The notes under the pieces were generated by a model. That model was not told where the DNA came from. It searched no databases and saw only the letters and a list, made by a program, of their open reading frames with translations. From Aromatoleum anaerobium (GTDB lineage: Bacteria > Pseudomonadota > Gammaproteobacteria > Burkholderiales > Rhodocyclaceae), in NCBI RefSeq assembly GCF_012910705.2, contig NZ_WTVG02000040.1, positions 558,001 to 622,000 of the forward strand: 64,000 nt of DNA. Direction: 5' to 3'. A program made the translations under genes and the position numbers. The stretch's first letter is position 1. Each line of letters begins with the position of its first letter. Shown here piece after piece: positions 4,034 to 14,721 of the stretch.

Positions 4034-4192
4034 TCTTTGTTCCGGCTGCGCGACCCCGACCCCGGTCGAAACACGCGGCGGGCACCGGTCGTAACACGTT
4101 CCGCCCCCGTTTCTTGTTACTCTTAATATTCACGACGATTGCCGGGGCGCCGTCCTGGCGACGCCTCTCACTGAATGGAAGAAAACTTCACG

Positions 4193-4684
4193 ATGACTCA
4201 ACGCCGACCCCGTGGCCTGTCCGCCGATCCGATGCTCCAATGGACCAACCTCGCCGTGAGGACGATCGAGATGATGATGGCGTCCGCGCAGGTCATCGGT
4301 CACCGCACCACGCGGATGGCCGACGCCGGCTTTACGCCCAGTGCGAGGGATCAGGAGGAATTCACGCTGATGGGGCAGGAAAAATTCGAGGCGGCCGCCG
4401 AATCGGCGCAAGCGATGACGATGCACCTGATGAAACTCAACCAGCGCCTGTGGGAACAGACGTCCGCCCGGATGGTCGGCGGCGCAGCCGCGATGTGGTC
4501 CTTGGCGGGCAGCCAGACGCTGGGCCAGTCGGTCGAGCGGCAAGCCGACCTCTTCAACCTGGTTTCGGAATCGGCGCAGAGCATGTCGAAGCTCGCCGGT
4601 TCGGGCGTGACGCTCGCCCACCGCGGACTGCGGCCGATCCACGCCAAGGCGACGGCGAACGCGAAGCGCCTCGGGGGACGGTAA
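4193..4684 (+). CDS. Phasin-like polyhydroxyalkanoate granule-associated protein
   Basis: A 163-residue protein made almost wholly of amphipathic helices rich in Ala, Met and Gln. It resembles the granule-associated phasins of betaproteobacteria, which coat polyhydroxyalkanoate inclusions. There is no signal peptide. The ATG at 4193 is preferred to the one at 4175 because GGAAGA lies about ten bases before it, while nothing resembling a ribosome site precedes 4175. It converges on the mlaC-type gene. The assignment rests on overall character and on the two other phasin-like genes in this window; no synthase gene is adjacent. Confidence 0.7.
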   Translation: MTQRRPRGLSADPMLQWTNLAVRTIEMMMASAQVIGHRTTRMADAGFTPSARDQEEFTLMGQEKFEAAAESAQAMTMHLMKLNQRLWEQTSARMVGGAAAMWSLAGSQTLGQSVERQADLFNLVSESAQSMSKLAGSGVTLAHRGLRPIHAKATANAKRLGGR

Positions 4685-6421: not shown

Positions 6422-9400
6422 ATGCCGAGCACATTGAAACCGGGCGAAATCCTCGTCCACCTGCCGGGCGAGGAACGTCCCGCGGGGGCGGCACGCAGCG
6501 CCCTGCCGCCTGCGCTGACAGCCGGAAGCCGGGCTGCGCTAGGCACTCCGGACCCGTTTCTCGATCGGATCGTCAGCGTCGAGGCCGCCTTCAGCCTCGT
6601 CGCGCCGGGCCGGGCCGACGGACCGGAAAGCGCCGCATCGGTCGCCGACGACCGCCTGCTCGCGCTCGAGACGGCGGACGGCGCGACGGTCTTCATCCGC
6701 GCCGACAAGCTGCGCGACGATCTCGCCCGAGTGCGTCCTGCAGCGGTGCGTGCCGACGGCTCGCTCGATCTCGCCGCGCTGCGCGACCCGGAGGCGGCTG
6801 CGCGCGGCGTGACCGACTGGATCTGGTCGCGGGTGTCGGTGCTGTCGCTGGGCAGCGACGCGATCACCGGCGCCGCGCTCGACAAGGCCGGCGAATGGCT
6901 GCGCGACTGGCTCGGCGAAGCGGCGCCGGATCTCGCGCCGTCCGGCGCCTCGTGGCTTGGCGCGAAAGCGCTGATGTGGGCGATCGAAAGCCGCCTGCCC
7001 GGCGAGCCGGGGATCTACCACTGGCGCAACGATGCCGCGCCCGCCGCTTCCGACCGCTGCGCACCCGGCGACGCGCGGCTCGCGGCCGGCGCCGACGCGC
7101 CGCTGCTGCTGTTTATCCACGGCACCGGCTCGCACACCTTCGGCAGCTTCAGCGATCTGCGCAGCGGCAGCGCCGCCGGCGACTGGGAGGCGCTGGCGCG
7201 GCGCTTCGGCGGCCGCATGTTCGGCTTCGAGCACCGGACGTTTTCCGAAAGCCCGATCGACAACGCGCTCGCGCTGGCGCGGACGCTGCCGGCGGACGCC
7301 CGGCTGTCGCTCGTCACGCATTCGCGCGGCGGCCTCGTCGGCGACCTGCTGTGCTTGGCCGGCCTCACGGATGCCGCGATCGCCGCCTATCGTCGCGATC
7401 CGCCACCGGACACGAGCGAGACGCCGCAGCAAAAGCGCCTGCGCGAGCTGGTCGCGGCGCGCGAACAGGATTCGCTGCGCGCGCTGCGCCAGGAACTCGC
7501 CGACAAGAACTTCCGCATCGAGCGCTACGTCCGCGTCGCGTGCCCGGCCCGCGGCACGTCGCTGCTGACGGACAACCTCGACGTGTTCCTGTCGGGTCTG
7601 CTGAGCCTGATGGCGAAGCTCGCCGGCGCGGCGACCGGTCCGGCCGGCGGCGCGGCGCTGTCGGCCTTCCGGCGCATCGTGCTGGAGATCGCCGCAAAAC
7701 GCATCGACCCGCGCTTTCTGCCGGGCATCGAGGCGATGCTGACCGACGCGCCGATGGCGCGGCTCCTCGCGGACGCCCAGCGCAAGCAGGGCATCGCGAT
7801 GTCGATCATCAGCGGCGACATCGAAGGCGGCAGCGTGCTCAGGCGGATCGGCGTGCTGTTCACCGACTGGATGTTCTTCGACCGCGCCGACAACGACCTC
7901 GTCATCGATACCGAGTCGATGTACGCGGGGCTGGCCGCGCGCAACGACGCCCGCTACCTGTTCGACCAGGGGGCATCGGTGCATCACTTCAGCTATTTCT
8001 CGAATCGCCTTACGCGAAGCGCGCTGCGCGACTGGCTGACCGCCGACGACCCCGCGGCGCTCGCCGCCTTCGCCCCCCTCGTCCGGCGTCACGAACCGGA
8101 TGCCGCGACCGTCCGCACTCGTGCAGCGAGGCGCGCCGCGCCGCGCCGCGACAGCCGCCCGGTCGTGATCATGCTGCCGGGGATCATGGGTTCGCACCTC
8201 GAGGTTCGCGCCGCCGACCGGTTGCCGGGTGAAGGCGACCGGGTGTGGTTCGACTTTCTCGATCTGGCGAGCGGCGGCCTGGCGAAAATCCGCTTCGACC
8301 GGCCGGACGTGCGCGAGGAAGCGCTGTTTGACATGTTCTACGGCGAGCTCGCGGAGTACCTCGCCGACAGCCACTTCGTGATCCGCTGCCCGTACGACTG
8401 GCGTCAGCCGCTGCAGGCCGCCGGCGCCTCGGCCGACCATCTCGCGGCGGTGCTGAAGCAGGCGCTCGCCGAGCACCCGAACCAGCCGGTGCGCCTGCTC
8501 GCGCACAGCCTCGGCGGCCTCGTCGCCCGCACGATGATCGCAAAGCACCCGGACCTGTGGGCGCAGCTCGTGCGGCGGCCCGGCGGCCGGCTGGTGATGC
8601 TCGGCACGCCGAACAACGGCTCGCACCTGATGGTCGAGGCGCTGCTCGGCAAGTCCGACCTGGTGCGCAAGCTCGCGCGCCTCGACCTGCGCCACGACAT
8701 GCAGCACGTGCTCGACATCGTCGCCGGCTTCCCGGGCGCGCTGCAGCTTCTGCCGCGGCCGGGCTTCGTCGACAACGGCGCGACACTGCACGCCGACTAT
8801 CTCGACGCCGCCGTGTGGCCGGCGCTCGCGCAGCACAATCGCGACCGCTGGTTCGGCGACCACCGCGTCGGCCGACCCGACGCCGACACGGTGGCGCAGG
8901 CCCGCGCGCTGTGGCAGACCACCCTCGCGGCCGGCACCGCACCGCAGCCGGTCGAGCGCGTCGTTTATGTGTTCGGCAAGGCCGGCAACACGCCCTGCGG
9001 CCTCGTGCTCGACGGCGGCCGGCTGAAAATGGTCGGCACCCCGGAGGGCGACGGCTCGGTGAGCTGGGCGTCGGGGCGGCTCGCAGGCCTGCCGGACGGG
9101 CAATGCTGGTTCATGCCGGCCGATCACGCCGGCCTGACCGGCACCGAGGAACACTTTCCGGCGATCGTCGATCTGCTGCACGCCGGCACGACCAGCCGTC
9201 TCGGCCGCCTGCCGGCCTTGCGCGGCGCGGCGGGGGCGACGCTGACGTACGACGCCCCTCCGCCGGTGCTGCCGACCGAGGAGGAACTCGCGCGCAGCAT
9301 CCTCGGCGGCAAGCCGAAACCTCCCCTTGCGGCGACGAGCCTGCAGTCGCTGCGGGTTTCGGTGGCGGCGATGGACCTGCGCTTCGCCCGCCACCCGGTC

Positions 9401-11734
9401 ATCTGCGGCCACTACATCGGCGACCCGATCGCCGGGGCCGAGGCCAGCATCGACCGTTACCTCGTCGGCGGCGCGTTGCGCCAGCGCGAACGGCTCGGCG
9501 TGTACGCCGGCGAAGTCGGGTCGAGCGCGGTCGTGCTGCAGGCCCGCGACGCCGGCGACCGGCTGCACGGCACCGGGCGCGGCGCGGTGATCGTCGGTCT
9601 CGGGCGCTTCGGTGAAGTGACGATGATGGACATCGCCGAGACGGTGCGCGCCGGCGTGCTGCGCTTCCTGCTGCACTCGCTCGATCGCCAGGACGGCGAC
9701 GCGCCGCCCGCGGACGACGCCAATACCGGGCTGACGCTCGCGAGCCTGCTGATCGGCTACAACTCGACCGCGCATATCGGCATCGAGGATTCGATCGCGA
9801 TGATCGTGCGCGGCGTCATCGCGGCGAACCGCCAGTTTGCCGACGCGATGCCGCGAACCCGGCTGCGCGTCGCGCGGCTCGAGCTGATCGAACTGTTCCT
9901 CGACACCGCGATCAGCGCCGCGCGCGCGGTGCGCGAACTGCCCGAACGCATCGCCGCCGACCTGCGTCGGCTCGAAGCCCGCGTCGAGCCGGCTGAAGAA
10001 CTGCGCGAGGGCGAAGGCGCGCGCCCGCGCCTGGCGGTGTTCGCGCGCTTCGGCTACTGGCCGCGCCTGATGGTCACCGACGCGGACCGCAGCGACGAGT
10101 CTCCGCTCGGCGGCGAAGACGACACCGGGCGCCCGTTCCCCCTTCCCGGCGGCGTGCTGCCTCCGCCCGCCCGGCCGGTCGCGACGCGGCTCAAGTACGT
10201 GTTCCTGTCCGAGCGCGCCCGCGCCGAAACCGTCGTGCAGCAACGCCAGCCCGGTCTCATCGAGGCGCTGGTGAAAAACGCGATCGGCCGCGACGAATAC
10301 AGCGCGGACCTGTCGCGCACGCTGTTCCAGCTGATGGTGCCGCTCGAATTCAAGGCCACGGCGCGCGACACCGAAAAACTCGTGCTCGTGGTCGATGGCT
10401 ACACCGCGAACCTGCCGTGGGAAATGCTGCAGGCGGACGACCAGCCGCTCGCGCTGAAGACGGCGATCGTGCGCAAGTTCGCCTCGACGCGTTACCGCCG
10501 CAACCCGATGATCCTGACGCGCAAGGTCGCGTGCGTGATCGCGAACCCCTCGACGCGCGGTTACCACGCCGCTTTCGACGATCCGGTTGCGGCCGCTCCG
10601 GCGCCGCACGCCGATCGCCTGCCCGACCTGCCCGGCGCGACGGCCGAAGGCGCGGCAATCCGCGATCTGCTCGCCGGGTGCGGCTACGCAGTCACCTACG
10701 GCGAAGGACTTGAAGCGCTCGACGTGTTCGCCCGCCTGTTCCATCAGCCGTGGCGCATCCTCGTGATCGCCGCGCACGGCGTGTTCCGCGTCGTCGCGCG
10801 CGACGGGCGTGCGCGCAGCGGCGTGGTGCTGTCCGACGGGCTGCTGCTGACGGCGGCCGAAGTCGGCCAGATGGAAATCGTGCCGGAGCTCGTGTTCCTC
10901 AATTGCTGCCACCTCGGCGCGATGAGCGTGCAACGCGAGACCGCGAACCGGCTCGCCTACAGCCTCGCGCGCGAGCTGATCGAGATCGGCGTACGCTGCG
11001 TCGTCGTCGCCGGCTGGCAGGTCAACGACGAGGCGGCGAAAGTCTTCGCGACGACTTTCTTCGACAGCTTCGTGCGTCGCTGCCAGCCGTTCGGCCCGGC
11101 GGTGTTCGCCGCGCGCCGCAGCACGTGGGAGCGCTTTCCGCAGTACAACACTTGGGGCGCCTACCAGGCGTACGGCGACCCCGAGCATGTGCTCGAGCCG
11201 TCCGCCGGGGAGACGGAGGGATGGAGCGCCGCGGCGATGGTGGTTCCGGCGGAGCTGGTGAATGCGCTCGACTGCGTCCGCGTCGCCCTCAGCCACGAGC
11301 CTCGCGACCTCGCGACGCTCGAACGCGAACTCGGTGCCCTGCTCGCACGCGGGCCGGCCGCATGGCAGGCGCTTCCCGAAGTGCAGGCGGCAATCGGCGC
11401 GGTGTATCGCGAACTCGGCCCCGCAGGGTTCGAAGCGGCGCGCGCCGCCTACTGCCGCGCGCTCGAACTGGAGGATCGCAGCGGGCGTGTTCCGCTCCGG
11501 ATCGTCGAACAGCTCGCGGAACTCGAGGTCCGTGCGGGCGAAGCGCACGGCGATGTCGCGCCGATTGACCGGACGATCGCACGCCTGCGCGGCCTCATCG
11601 CACTGTGCTCGTCCGACCGCGCACGAACGCGCAGCCCGGATGCGCAAAACGCCGTTGCACCCCATGCCGAACTGCGCCCCGCCAGCGACGCATCCCGTCC
11701 GGCAAAGGCGCGGCGATCGAAAAAGAAGAGCTGA
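6422..11734 (+). CDS. Giant dual alpha/beta-hydrolase plus CHAT protease protein
   Basis: A 1770-residue multidomain protein with no signal peptide. Order: an N-terminal region (1-220); a first alpha/beta-hydrolase with FIHGTGSHTFG near 231 and a nucleophile elbow THSRGG (Ser301); a second, LCAT-like hydrolase with LPGIMGS at 585-591, AHSLGG (Ser696) and a likely catalytic His902; an unassigned region (about 970-1110) resembling nothing I can name; a CHAT caspase-like protease (about 1255-1600) with LPWEML near 1331, catalytic His1452 in AAHG, Cys1496 in NCCHLG, and the closing AYGDP near 1583; and a helical tail. All catalytic residues look intact. It starts at the ATG after a GGAGG site. 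CHAT proteases act in bacterial defence and cell-death systems such as those activating gasdermins or pairing with type III-E CRISPR. The two lipase-like domains suggest lipid or ester targets. Actual function unknown. Confidence 0.85.
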   Translation: MPSTLKPGEILVHLPGEERPAGAARSALPPALTAGSRAALGTPDPFLDRIVSVEAAFSLVAPGRADGPESAASVADDRLLALETADGATVFIRADKLRDDLARVRPAAVRADGSLDLAALRDPEAAARGVTDWIWSRVSVLSLGSDAITGAALDKAGEWLRDWLGEAAPDLAPSGASWLGAKALMWAIESRLPGEPGIYHWRNDAAPAASDRCAPGDARLAAGADAPLLLFIHGTGSHTFGSFSDLRSGSAAGDWEALARRFGGRMFGFEHRTFSESPIDNALALARTLPADARLSLVTHSRGGLVGDLLCLAGLTDAAIAAYRRDPPPDTSETPQQKRLRELVAAREQDSLRALRQELADKNFRIERYVRVACPARGTSLLTDNLDVFLSGLLSLMAKLAGAATGPAGGAALSAFRRIVLEIAAKRIDPRFLPGIEAMLTDAPMARLLADAQRKQGIAMSIISGDIEGGSVLRRIGVLFTDWMFFDRADNDLVIDTESMYAGLAARNDARYLFDQGASVHHFSYFSNRLTRSALRDWLTADDPAALAAFAPLVRRHEPDAATVRTRAARRAAPRRDSRPVVIMLPGIMGSHLEVRAADRLPGEGDRVWFDFLDLASGGLAKIRFDRPDVREEALFDMFYGELAEYLADSHFVIRCPYDWRQPLQAAGASADHLAAVLKQALAEHPNQPVRLLAHSLGGLVARTMIAKHPDLWAQLVRRPGGRLVMLGTPNNGSHLMVEALLGKSDLVRKLARLDLRHDMQHVLDIVAGFPGALQLLPRPGFVDNGATLHADYLDAAVWPALAQHNRDRWFGDHRVGRPDADTVAQARALWQTTLAAGTAPQPVERVVYVFGKAGNTPCGLVLDGGRLKMVGTPEGDGSVSWASGRLAGLPDGQCWFMPADHAGLTGTEEHFPAIVDLLHAGTTSRLGRLPALRGAAGATLTYDAPPPVLPTEEELARSILGGKPKPPLAATSLQSLRVSVAAMDLRFARHPVICGHYIGDPIAGAEASIDRYLVGGALRQRERLGVYAGEVGSSAVVLQARDAGDRLHGTGRGAVIVGLGRFGEVTMMDIAETVRAGVLRFLLHSLDRQDGDAPPADDANTGLTLASLLIGYNSTAHIGIEDSIAMIVRGVIAANRQFADAMPRTRLRVARLELIELFLDTAISAARAVRELPERIAADLRRLEARVEPAEELREGEGARPRLAVFARFGYWPRLMVTDADRSDESPLGGEDDTGRPFPLPGGVLPPPARPVATRLKYVFLSERARAETVVQQRQPGLIEALVKNAIGRDEYSADLSRTLFQLMVPLEFKATARDTEKLVLVVDGYTANLPWEMLQADDQPLALKTAIVRKFASTRYRRNPMILTRKVACVIANPSTRGYHAAFDDPVAAAPAPHADRLPDLPGATAEGAAIRDLLAGCGYAVTYGEGLEALDVFARLFHQPWRILVIAAHGVFRVVARDGRARSGVVLSDGLLLTAAEVGQMEIVPELVFLNCCHLGAMSVQRETANRLAYSLARELIEIGVRCVVVAGWQVNDEAAKVFATTFFDSFVRRCQPFGPAVFAARRSTWERFPQYNTWGAYQAYGDPEHVLEPSAGETEGWSAAAMVVPAELVNALDCVRVALSHEPRDLATLERELGALLARGPAAWQALPEVQAAIGAVYRELGPAGFEAARAAYCRALELEDRSGRVPLRIVEQLAELEVRAGEAHGDVAPIDRTIARLRGLIALCSSDRARTRSPDAQNAVAPHAELRPASDASRPAKARRSKKKS

Positions 11735-14259: not shown

Positions 14260-14721
14260 ATGCCCACGAAGCACGAGCACGACGTAATCGGTGCAAACGT
14301 CGTCCAGGCGTTCCAGACGATTTCGACCCTTTATCTGACCAGCGCCCAGCGCCTGGCGGAATTGAACATGAGCACGATGCACGAAGCCATTGAAATCAGT
14401 ACATCGGCGATGCAGGAAATGGCCCGTGCCAAGAATCCCCAGGACGTCCAGTTGATGGTTTTCCAGCCGCTGCTGGAAAACGCCCAGAATTACACACGCA
14501 AGGCCTGCGACATCCTCGCCAAGACCCAGCAGGAAGCCGTCAATGCGATGATTCCGCAGTTCGCGGGCCGCAACCCGTTCGGTGACTGGAACTCCGCCTT
14601 CGAAGCCTTCAACACCGGCATGCGCCGGTTTTCGTCGCTGACCGCCGACAACCTTGCCGCGGCGACCGAAGCGACCTCGCAGGCAACCGAGGGGCGCCCG
14701 TACAGCAAGAAATCGGCGTAG
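14260..14721 (+). CDS. phaP: Phasin family protein
   Basis: A 153-residue phasin. It is all helical, with the hydrophobic/amphipathic repeat QTISTLYLTSAQRLAELNMS near residues 19-38, the conserved FQPLLENAQNYTRKACDI region (about 68-85) and an Ala/Thr-rich tail ending in Lys-Lys. Phasins coat polyhydroxyalkanoate granules and control their number and size. GGAGGG lies eight bases before the ATG, and a strong intrinsic terminator follows the stop codon. It is the clearest of the three phasin-type genes here. Confidence 0.88.
   Translation: MPTKHEHDVIGANVVQAFQTISTLYLTSAQRLAELNMSTMHEAIEISTSAMQEMARAKNPQDVQLMVFQPLLENAQNYTRKACDILAKTQQEAVNAMIPQFAGRNPFGDWNSAFEAFNTGMRRFSSLTADNLAAATEATSQATEGRPYSKKSA

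Follow-up and report, generated by a model that had tools for sequence, protein, structure and literature searches.

Does a protein that joins two lipase-type hydrolases to a protease in a single chain act on its own, and on what would it act? The question is raised by a gene of Aromatoleum anaerobium at positions 6422-11734 on the forward strand of a 64,000-nucleotide stretch of contig NZ_WTVG02000040.1 (the window). The first-pass annotation of the window had read the product as a self-contained, proteolytically switched lipase with three intact active sites. Sequence profiles, predicted folds and residue conservation across homologues support the active sites, and a caspase-type gene proved to be the usual neighbour of the gene in other genomes. 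We give an even chance to the reading that the protein is a cytoplasmic protease-gated phospholipase, acting as a suicide or defence effector and ancestrally encoded in two genes; for this reading, we infer the cleavage, the lipid substrate, the membrane damage, the trigger and the defence role.

Predicted active sites and folds

The open reading frame (ORF) is free of stops and encodes 1770 residues, and codon-position GC favours the forward frame, in the pattern of a real gene. It is a single-copy gene, and no other CHAT protein was found in the A. anaerobium genome. The nearest named relatives are from A. buckelii (89% identity) and other Aromatoleum species (about 70%). Based on the ORF, Pfam matches and full-length homologues, the chain (6422-11734) was divided into an N-terminal region, a DUF7379 hydrolase (hydrolase 1), a hydrolase resembling lysosomal phospholipase A2 and LCAT (hydrolase 2), a domain with a leucyl-aminopeptidase-N (Peptidase_M17_N) or macro-like fold, a CHAT protease and a short helical tail, all on the forward strand. 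The N-terminal region (residues 1-220, positions 6422-7081) matched no family, and a signal peptide was not apparent by eye. An antisense open frame of 1708 residues (6539-11665, reverse strand) runs through the whole gene and could be called by automatic annotation; most likely it is a GC-rich shadow of the 1770-residue gene.

Two AlphaFold models, each built with the protein and 61 relatives, covered residues 1-955 and 945-1770, with predicted local distance difference test (pLDDT) scores of 85.1 and 82.9, respectively. Hydrolase 1 (residues 225-545, positions 7094-8056) matched Pfam DUF7379 with an E-value of 2.4e-30 (106.3 bits against a cut-off of 33). Its predicted lipase fold (about 226-570) was closest to PlaB (6zth_C; Z 18.3, root-mean-square deviation (rmsd) 3.5, 252 aligned residues) and to Geobacillus lipases (Z around 17 overall; 17.6 for 4fmp_A). 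Hydrolase 2 (residues 578-925, positions 8153-9196) gave Pfam matches to Abhydrolase_1, PGAP1 and LCAT, each slightly over the cut-off (for LCAT 23.5 bits against 21). The model of residues 578-921 resembled lysosomal phospholipase A2 (4x97_A; Z 27.1, rmsd 3.3, 309 aligned), LCAT (4xwg_A; Z 25.0) and the type VI effector Tle4 (4r1d_A; Z 21.7), and sequence profiles matched 4x90 (3.6e-4) and 4r1d (1.8e-5). The profile match over the cut-off and the fold together point to a member of the LCAT/lysosomal phospholipase A2 family with a predicted phospholipase or acyltransferase activity.

The CHAT protease (residues 1255-1595, positions 10184-11206) was recognized by Pfam (PF12770) at residues 1297-1586 (1.3e-31, 110.6 bits against a cut-off of 24). 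In the model, residues 1210-1595, approximately, resembled separase (5fc2_B; Z 22.4, rmsd 3.6, 290 aligned), and the region from 1206 resembled Csx29 (7y9x_B; Z 20.1). The motifs listed in the first-pass annotation were located exactly: THSRGG starts at 299 with Ser301, LPGIMGS is at 585 and AHSLGG starts at 694 with Ser696, while His902, His1452 and Cys1496 were also found in place. Structure prediction, which had been proposed as a check, returned hydrolase folds and a caspase/separase-type fold. At the level of fold and residue conservation, neither of the outcomes that the first-pass annotation had named as refuting its reading was observed.

To count catalytic residues, 103 homologous loci were reduced to 87 frames that passed a full-length filter and, after removal of identical sequences, to 80 aligned rows. 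Since L017 proved to be a truncated copy of L039, these rows represent 79 distinct proteins, including that of A. anaerobium. Residue counts refer to these 79 proteins and exclude fragments and split genes; linker, hydropathy and tree counts refer to the 80 rows. The four residues tested in hydrolase 1, His233 (in an HGTGS motif), Ser301, Asp492 and His522, were each present in 79/79 proteins, as were both members of the CHAT dyad, His1452 and Cys1496. In hydrolase 2, Asp877 and His902 were likewise invariant, and Ser696 was found in 75 of the 79 proteins, the exceptions being three glycines and one cysteine. Asp492 and Asp877 are putative triad members, selected on conservation and on ND and GDG contexts that we take to be those of related lipases. 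Furthermore, all nine residues are kept in three of three full-length plasmid relatives (Azotobacter, Paracoccus yeei and Ensifer; about 31-34% identity), drawn from seven plasmid records with matches to each of the three enzyme parts. Conservation and predicted folds thus back the proposal of three intact active sites in one chain.

Within hydrolase 1, a hydrophobic helix (residues 386-404, positions 7577-7633) was indicated by hydropathy and by the AlphaFold model, which has a helix at 383-404. In 44/80 rows, the 19-residue segment of highest hydrophobicity has its centre at query positions 380-419. It is possible that this helix serves as a lid or as a membrane anchor or contact.

An unassigned domain had been noted at about residues 970-1110. 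The domain is real, but that extent was too short: in the model it covers about 977-1180 (positions 9350-9961). It matches the N-terminal domain of the leucyl aminopeptidase PepA (1gyt_A; Z 14.9, rmsd 3.1, 174 aligned) as well as macro domain structures, namely macroH2A1.1 (1zr3_A; Z 14.9) and an ADP-ribose-bound macro domain (3gqo_A; Z 14.5), and we therefore predict a macro/M17-N fold. Pfam gave no match to any family in the A. anaerobium region or in six of seven other close-family regions, and the sole match in the seventh was to an unrelated family at 0.17. Profile comparison of the domain with a distant relative (L112) also gave no match. On the other hand, distant relatives themselves match Peptidase_M17_N ahead of CHAT (L112 at 6.3e-7; L111 at 7.8e-4, below the cut-off). 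The suggested M17-N identity is thus carried by the fold and by the distant relatives, with weaker sequence support. With a fold now assigned, the domain hints at what the trigger might be.

Caspase neighbours and tails across the family

The first-pass annotation had described a solo gene and a one-gene system. This holds for the A. anaerobium locus, to judge from ten neighbouring ORFs, and for the A. anaerobium clade, but not as a trait of the family. Of 73 named homologous loci, 55 have a gene for a caspase-domain protein (Peptidase_C14) near the large gene and in the same orientation, normally directly upstream, and many relatives carry a TPR-S domain in the tail. Such two-gene versions occur, for example, in Zoogloea and A. 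evansii. In 52 of these 55 loci, the end of the C14 frame is no more than about 150 bases away from the large frame; the C14 gene is downstream in one (L076) and farther off in two (L094 and L100) that have a split large gene. Both C14 neighbours that were scanned with Pfam were assigned to Peptidase_C14 (3.9e-27 and 3.9e-24), and the His and Cys motif patterns occur together within one frame in 53/55. We take these proteins to be metacaspase-like because of a DSCHSG motif. The search profile was built from the C14 genes of these same loci, and a diverged caspase could escape it. The 73 loci also include fragments (e.g., L083, L096 and L101-L103).

One caspase that did escape is found in a Chromatiales metagenome-assembled genome (L086, 1842-5388, +), counted among the 18 loci without C14, where a diverged Peptidase_C14 protein (7.8e-9) is encoded upstream of the large gene, with a gene that by eye is metallo-beta-lactamase-like also upstream. 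In Azoarcus sp. L1K30 (L045, 5970-8984, +), the C14 gene is directly preceded by the gene for a second CHAT protein, in which Asn is aligned at the position of the catalytic His, suggesting a pseudoprotease. A pair of caspase and lipase-CHAT genes in a Desulfobacterales genome (L037) groups in the tree with Pseudomonadota sequences near Zoogloeaceae, indicating horizontal transfer.

Of 61 named relatives scanned, 41 have a tail that matches the TPR-S profile (PF20308; E up to 0.001). A profile made from a TIR-like/TPR-S gene also matches in the flanks of 16/73 loci, in some of them weakly, and nine Accumulibacter loci have a TIR-like/TPR-S gene downstream, within 60 bases in five. At L069, a short gene directly upstream resembles the C-terminal part of the TIR-like/TPR-S protein; it matches no Pfam family and is presumably SLOG-like. 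The A. anaerobium tail (residues 1600-1770, positions 11219-11731) is, from tail comparison, a shortened helical counterpart of the longer, often TPR-S-matching tails of the relatives.

The genus provides a natural experiment, since its closely related species differ in whether they have the caspase partner and the TPR-S tail. The large gene occurs in 13 of 17 genomes, and the C14 gene lies alongside it in eight of those 13. The other five carriers (G000, G005, G007, G008 and G014) gave no C14 match anywhere in the genome, and Peptidase_C14 was not found in the A. anaerobium genome. TPR-S was matched in nine same-genus carriers, and neither in the A. anaerobium tail nor in the genomes of its clade (G000, G005, G007 and G008). 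A tree of the 80 rows, from a quick search with Shimodaira-Hasegawa-like approximate likelihood ratio test (SH-aLRT) support only, fully supported the A. anaerobium clade. It grouped the G014 protein (L012) with the caspase-bearing clade, and the Cognatazoarcus sequence outside has a caspase. This placement implies two changes within the genus, and one loss plus one regain is as parsimonious as two losses. When the presence of the caspase was mapped on the whole tree, 12 changes were required, compared with 21.7 for shuffled labels, and none of 500 shuffles was as low. Because C14 and TPR-S are usual in the family and both are gone from the A. anaerobium clade, the one-gene state of this clade looks derived and the ancestral form looks like a two-gene system. 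Loss of the caspase does not force loss of the tail, since G014 keeps TPR-S and a Thiotrichaceae clade, with four proteins that have no caspase nearby, keeps long tails.

Recombined modules in distant relatives

A plasmid search returned 13 matching records, nine of which were inspected, and distant relatives in which the lipase and protease parts occur in other combinations were found. A Rhizobium leguminosarum protein combines LCAT, M17_N and CHAT near annotated SIR2 and endonuclease genes. A CHAT-TPR-S gene is flanked by two annotated TIR genes, of which the scanned one encodes a TIR-nSTAND1-WD40 protein. The LCAT-type triad is intact both in L109, which has a different protease, and in L112, in a much reduced chain. 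The best argument for joint action of lipase and protease is that they are paired again and again while their partners are exchanged. Defence-type context, such as the SIR2, TIR and STAND linkages, is present in some of these distant relatives.

Three of the plasmid loci can be described individually. On a Ruegeria pomeroyi megaplasmid (L117, 4851-10748, +), a DUF7379-CHAT fusion, encoded by SPO_RS20450, ends 36 bases ahead of a SIR2-AAA gene, in a compact arrangement from a cultured strain. A Streptomyces plasmid (L114, 763-6251, +) carries an NB-ARC-CHAT gene that overlaps an LCAT-type gene by 4 bases, i.e., a split STAND-protease-lipase. A Qingshengfaniella plasmid (L109, 5836-8358, +) encodes an LCAT-like lipase fused to a trypsin-like protease, which is the same lipase type with a different protease. 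The reduced forms from Ruegeria (DUF7379-CHAT) and Rhizobium (LCAT-M17_N-CHAT) are small enough for reconstitution. Of the full-length plasmid copies, that of Azotobacter lies beside restriction-modification, Fic, recombinase and insertion sequence (IS) genes, and the inspected copy of Paracoccus yeei among transport and sugar genes.

A proposed protease-gated phospholipase, its alternatives and known systems

In the proposed mechanism, the two lipase-fold domains would form a membrane-attacking output and CHAT the switch, while the M17-N/macro-like domain, together with the TPR-S tail in many relatives, would be the likely sensing or docking part. A trigger would unleash CHAT, which would cleave either its own protein or the neighbouring caspase, and in the latter case the caspase would then cleave the large protein. 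The freed lipases could break down the membrane lipids of the cell itself, as a form of abortive infection or of suicide under stress. The directly upstream C14 caspase was most likely the partner of the ancestral form and may have been an upstream activator or a downstream relay. SAVED-CHAT, whose target is a caspase-like protein, is a precedent for such a CHAT-caspase pair. The one-gene version of the A. anaerobium clade would be triggered via CHAT alone or by a protein encoded elsewhere. A proteolytically switched lipase, as first proposed, is still the best reading, with the gating probably tied to a caspase partner in most of the family. If correct, bacteria would pair caspase-type proteases with phospholipases in one chain and not only with pore formers, and an enzymatic alternative to pore formation in caspase-controlled membrane death would become testable. 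A more specific version describes a lipolytic counterpart of pyroptosis: a cascade of CHAT and caspase would free two phospholipases upon an ADP-ribose- or nucleotide-type signal, perceived through the macro-like domain and TPR-S, and would have collapsed to one self-sufficient protein in the A. anaerobium clade. This version is tentative, and we lean against it.

Several observations weigh against the proposed gated phospholipase and its defence role. The activity of hydrolase 2 is not required in every case, since Ser696 is replaced in 4/79 proteins while Asp877 and His902 stay. For the Streptomyces gene pair, neither the CHAT His nor the equivalents of Asp877 and His902 of the LCAT-type protein aligned. 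C14 was not found near the large gene in 18/73 named loci, of which some are fragments or have short flanks (e.g., L083, L102 and L103). A conserved basic site for caspase cleavage between the hydrolases was considered and is unsupported, since the linker is neither unusually basic (K+R fraction 0.120, compared with 0.112 overall) nor conserved (dibasic in 29/80 rows). None of the PADLOC-DB 2.0.0 models matched the 1770-residue protein at E up to 1. The phage collection gave no match, and IMG/VR, in a search reaching close relatives only, gave no confirmed contig. Finally, context does not prove defence, because the Pfam families listed for the neighbours of close relatives (25 of 126) are for the most part ordinary. 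The underlying scan covered 74 of 265 called neighbour ORFs at 27 loci, excluding C14 genes found by profile; having no control region, it supports neither enrichment nor absence of defence genes. Among 25 of 77 PADLOC families listed, there was one member each for Cas8c, cytosine methylases, a CARF-type regulator, LmuA, Avs1a and a DRT protein.

The surroundings of the gene in A. anaerobium bear on an alternative, in which it encodes a housekeeping enzyme of lipids or storage granules: the hydrolases would remodel membrane lipid or polyhydroxyalkanoate, and CHAT would limit the enzyme under stress. The ten neighbouring ORFs scanned with Pfam include MlaC, EF-hand, AsmA, phasin-like, major facilitator superfamily (MFS) and LysR genes; genes for gasdermin, STAND or Cas proteins were not found among them. 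Phasin_2-like genes lie on both sides (4175-4684, +, 21.5 bits, below the cut-off; 14260-14721, +, 47.7 bits), which together with MlaC and AsmA resembles a lipid or storage-polymer neighbourhood. Besides these neighbours, the housekeeping role is favoured by the position between MlaC and AsmA, kept in all four species of the A. anaerobium clade, by the mostly ordinary neighbours in relatives and by several carriers that we take to be polymer-storing sludge bacteria. The MlaC/AsmA context, however, is present in none of the other genomes among the 17 of the genus, and a role in polyhydroxyalkanoate metabolism is ranked lower for that reason. The gene is also patchy for a housekeeping function: it is carried by 13/17 genomes in the genus and, at E up to 1e-30, by four (A. 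anaerobium included) of 398 genomes sampled across the phylum. The linkage of relatives to caspase, TIR-like, SIR2 and STAND genes also counts against this role. We consider a housekeeping role unlikely. The preferred reading of a gated phospholipase was also compared with the possibility that CHAT is the output, acting in trans, e.g., on the neighbouring caspase, and that the lipase folds are sensors of lipid or acyl ligands, or regulators. The invariant dyad, compared with the loss of Ser696 in four proteins that keep Asp and His, agrees with such a role, as does the start of a proteolytic cascade by SAVED-CHAT (PMC11229360). The ratio of nonsynonymous to synonymous substitution rates (dN/dS) of CHAT, 0.15-0.18, points in the same direction, as CHAT ranked lowest or second-lowest among the domains in all three comparisons. 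The complete conservation of the hydrolase 1 triad and the intact LCAT-type triads in L109 and the reduced L112, however, count against this possibility, and we judge CHAT as the output to be quite unlikely.

The same dN/dS values, which are NG86 point estimates without significance test against three species of the A. anaerobium clade, bear on whether the gene is a decaying remnant, on its way out after the loss of the caspase and of a recognizable TPR-S tail. Overall dN/dS was 0.26-0.31, with 0.28-0.37 in the N-terminal region, 0.22-0.41 in the hydrolases, 0.12-0.20 in the macro-like domain and 0.41-0.44 in the tail. The tail values and the missing caspase and TPR-S matches would fit decay. 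However, dN/dS is well below 1 in every enzyme domain, so the gene does not look decaying, and the ORF and the nine checked catalytic residues are intact in four species, which makes decay very unlikely. Finally, the similarity of hydrolase 2 to Tle4, in both fold and sequence profile, might indicate an antibacterial toxin exported by a type VI or other secretion system. This is highly improbable: the ten scanned neighbours include no recognizable secretion gene, the large CHAT and macro-like module is ill-suited to a simple exported toxin, and the caspase linkage would be unexplained.

The domains are known, and so is the theme of a caspase-type protease combined with a membrane-attacking effector. 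Among the papers listed in searches of the open-access literature, we found no description of the architecture of two lipases, macro-like domain, CHAT and TPR-S with a caspase neighbour, and no mention of DUF7379 in those open-access papers that were checked for it. One of the closest likenesses is with gasdermin systems, bacterial and fungal, whose genes specify a protease of the caspase-like or CHAT type together with an executioner that attacks the membrane: bacterial gasdermins are activated by caspase-like proteases (PMC9612521), and in a fungus a TPR-bearing CHAT protease activates a gasdermin (PMC12881547). The system described here differs in that two candidate executioner lipases are part of the protease's own chain, with no gasdermin among the ten neighbours. 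The SAVED-CHAT proteins of type III CRISPR and CBASS (PMC11229360) likewise combine CHAT with a signal-sensing domain, which here is only likely, in a proteolytic cascade. The A. anaerobium protein has no SAVED match and no CRISPR gene among the scanned neighbours, and it has an M17-N/macro-like fold and built-in lipases instead. Craspase, with the TPR-CHAT protein Csx29, shares the protease fold and the joining of helical repeats to CHAT. In contrast to Craspase, no Cas gene (Cas7-11/CRISPR) was found in the ten scanned neighbours, the helical tail follows CHAT rather than preceding it, and two lipases are fused. Predicted conflict systems of the MoxR-vWA/VMAP type also pair a caspase with a neighbouring alpha/beta-hydrolase gene, according to PMC7159879, the main text of which contains neither "CHAT" nor "lipase"; MoxR and vWA were found neither among the ten neighbours nor among the matches listed for relatives (25 of 126 families). 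With lysosomal phospholipase A2 and LCAT, the similarity concerns the fold of hydrolase 2 and the sequence around its nucleophile; here, with no apparent signal peptide, the hydrolase forms part of a bacterial multidomain chain.

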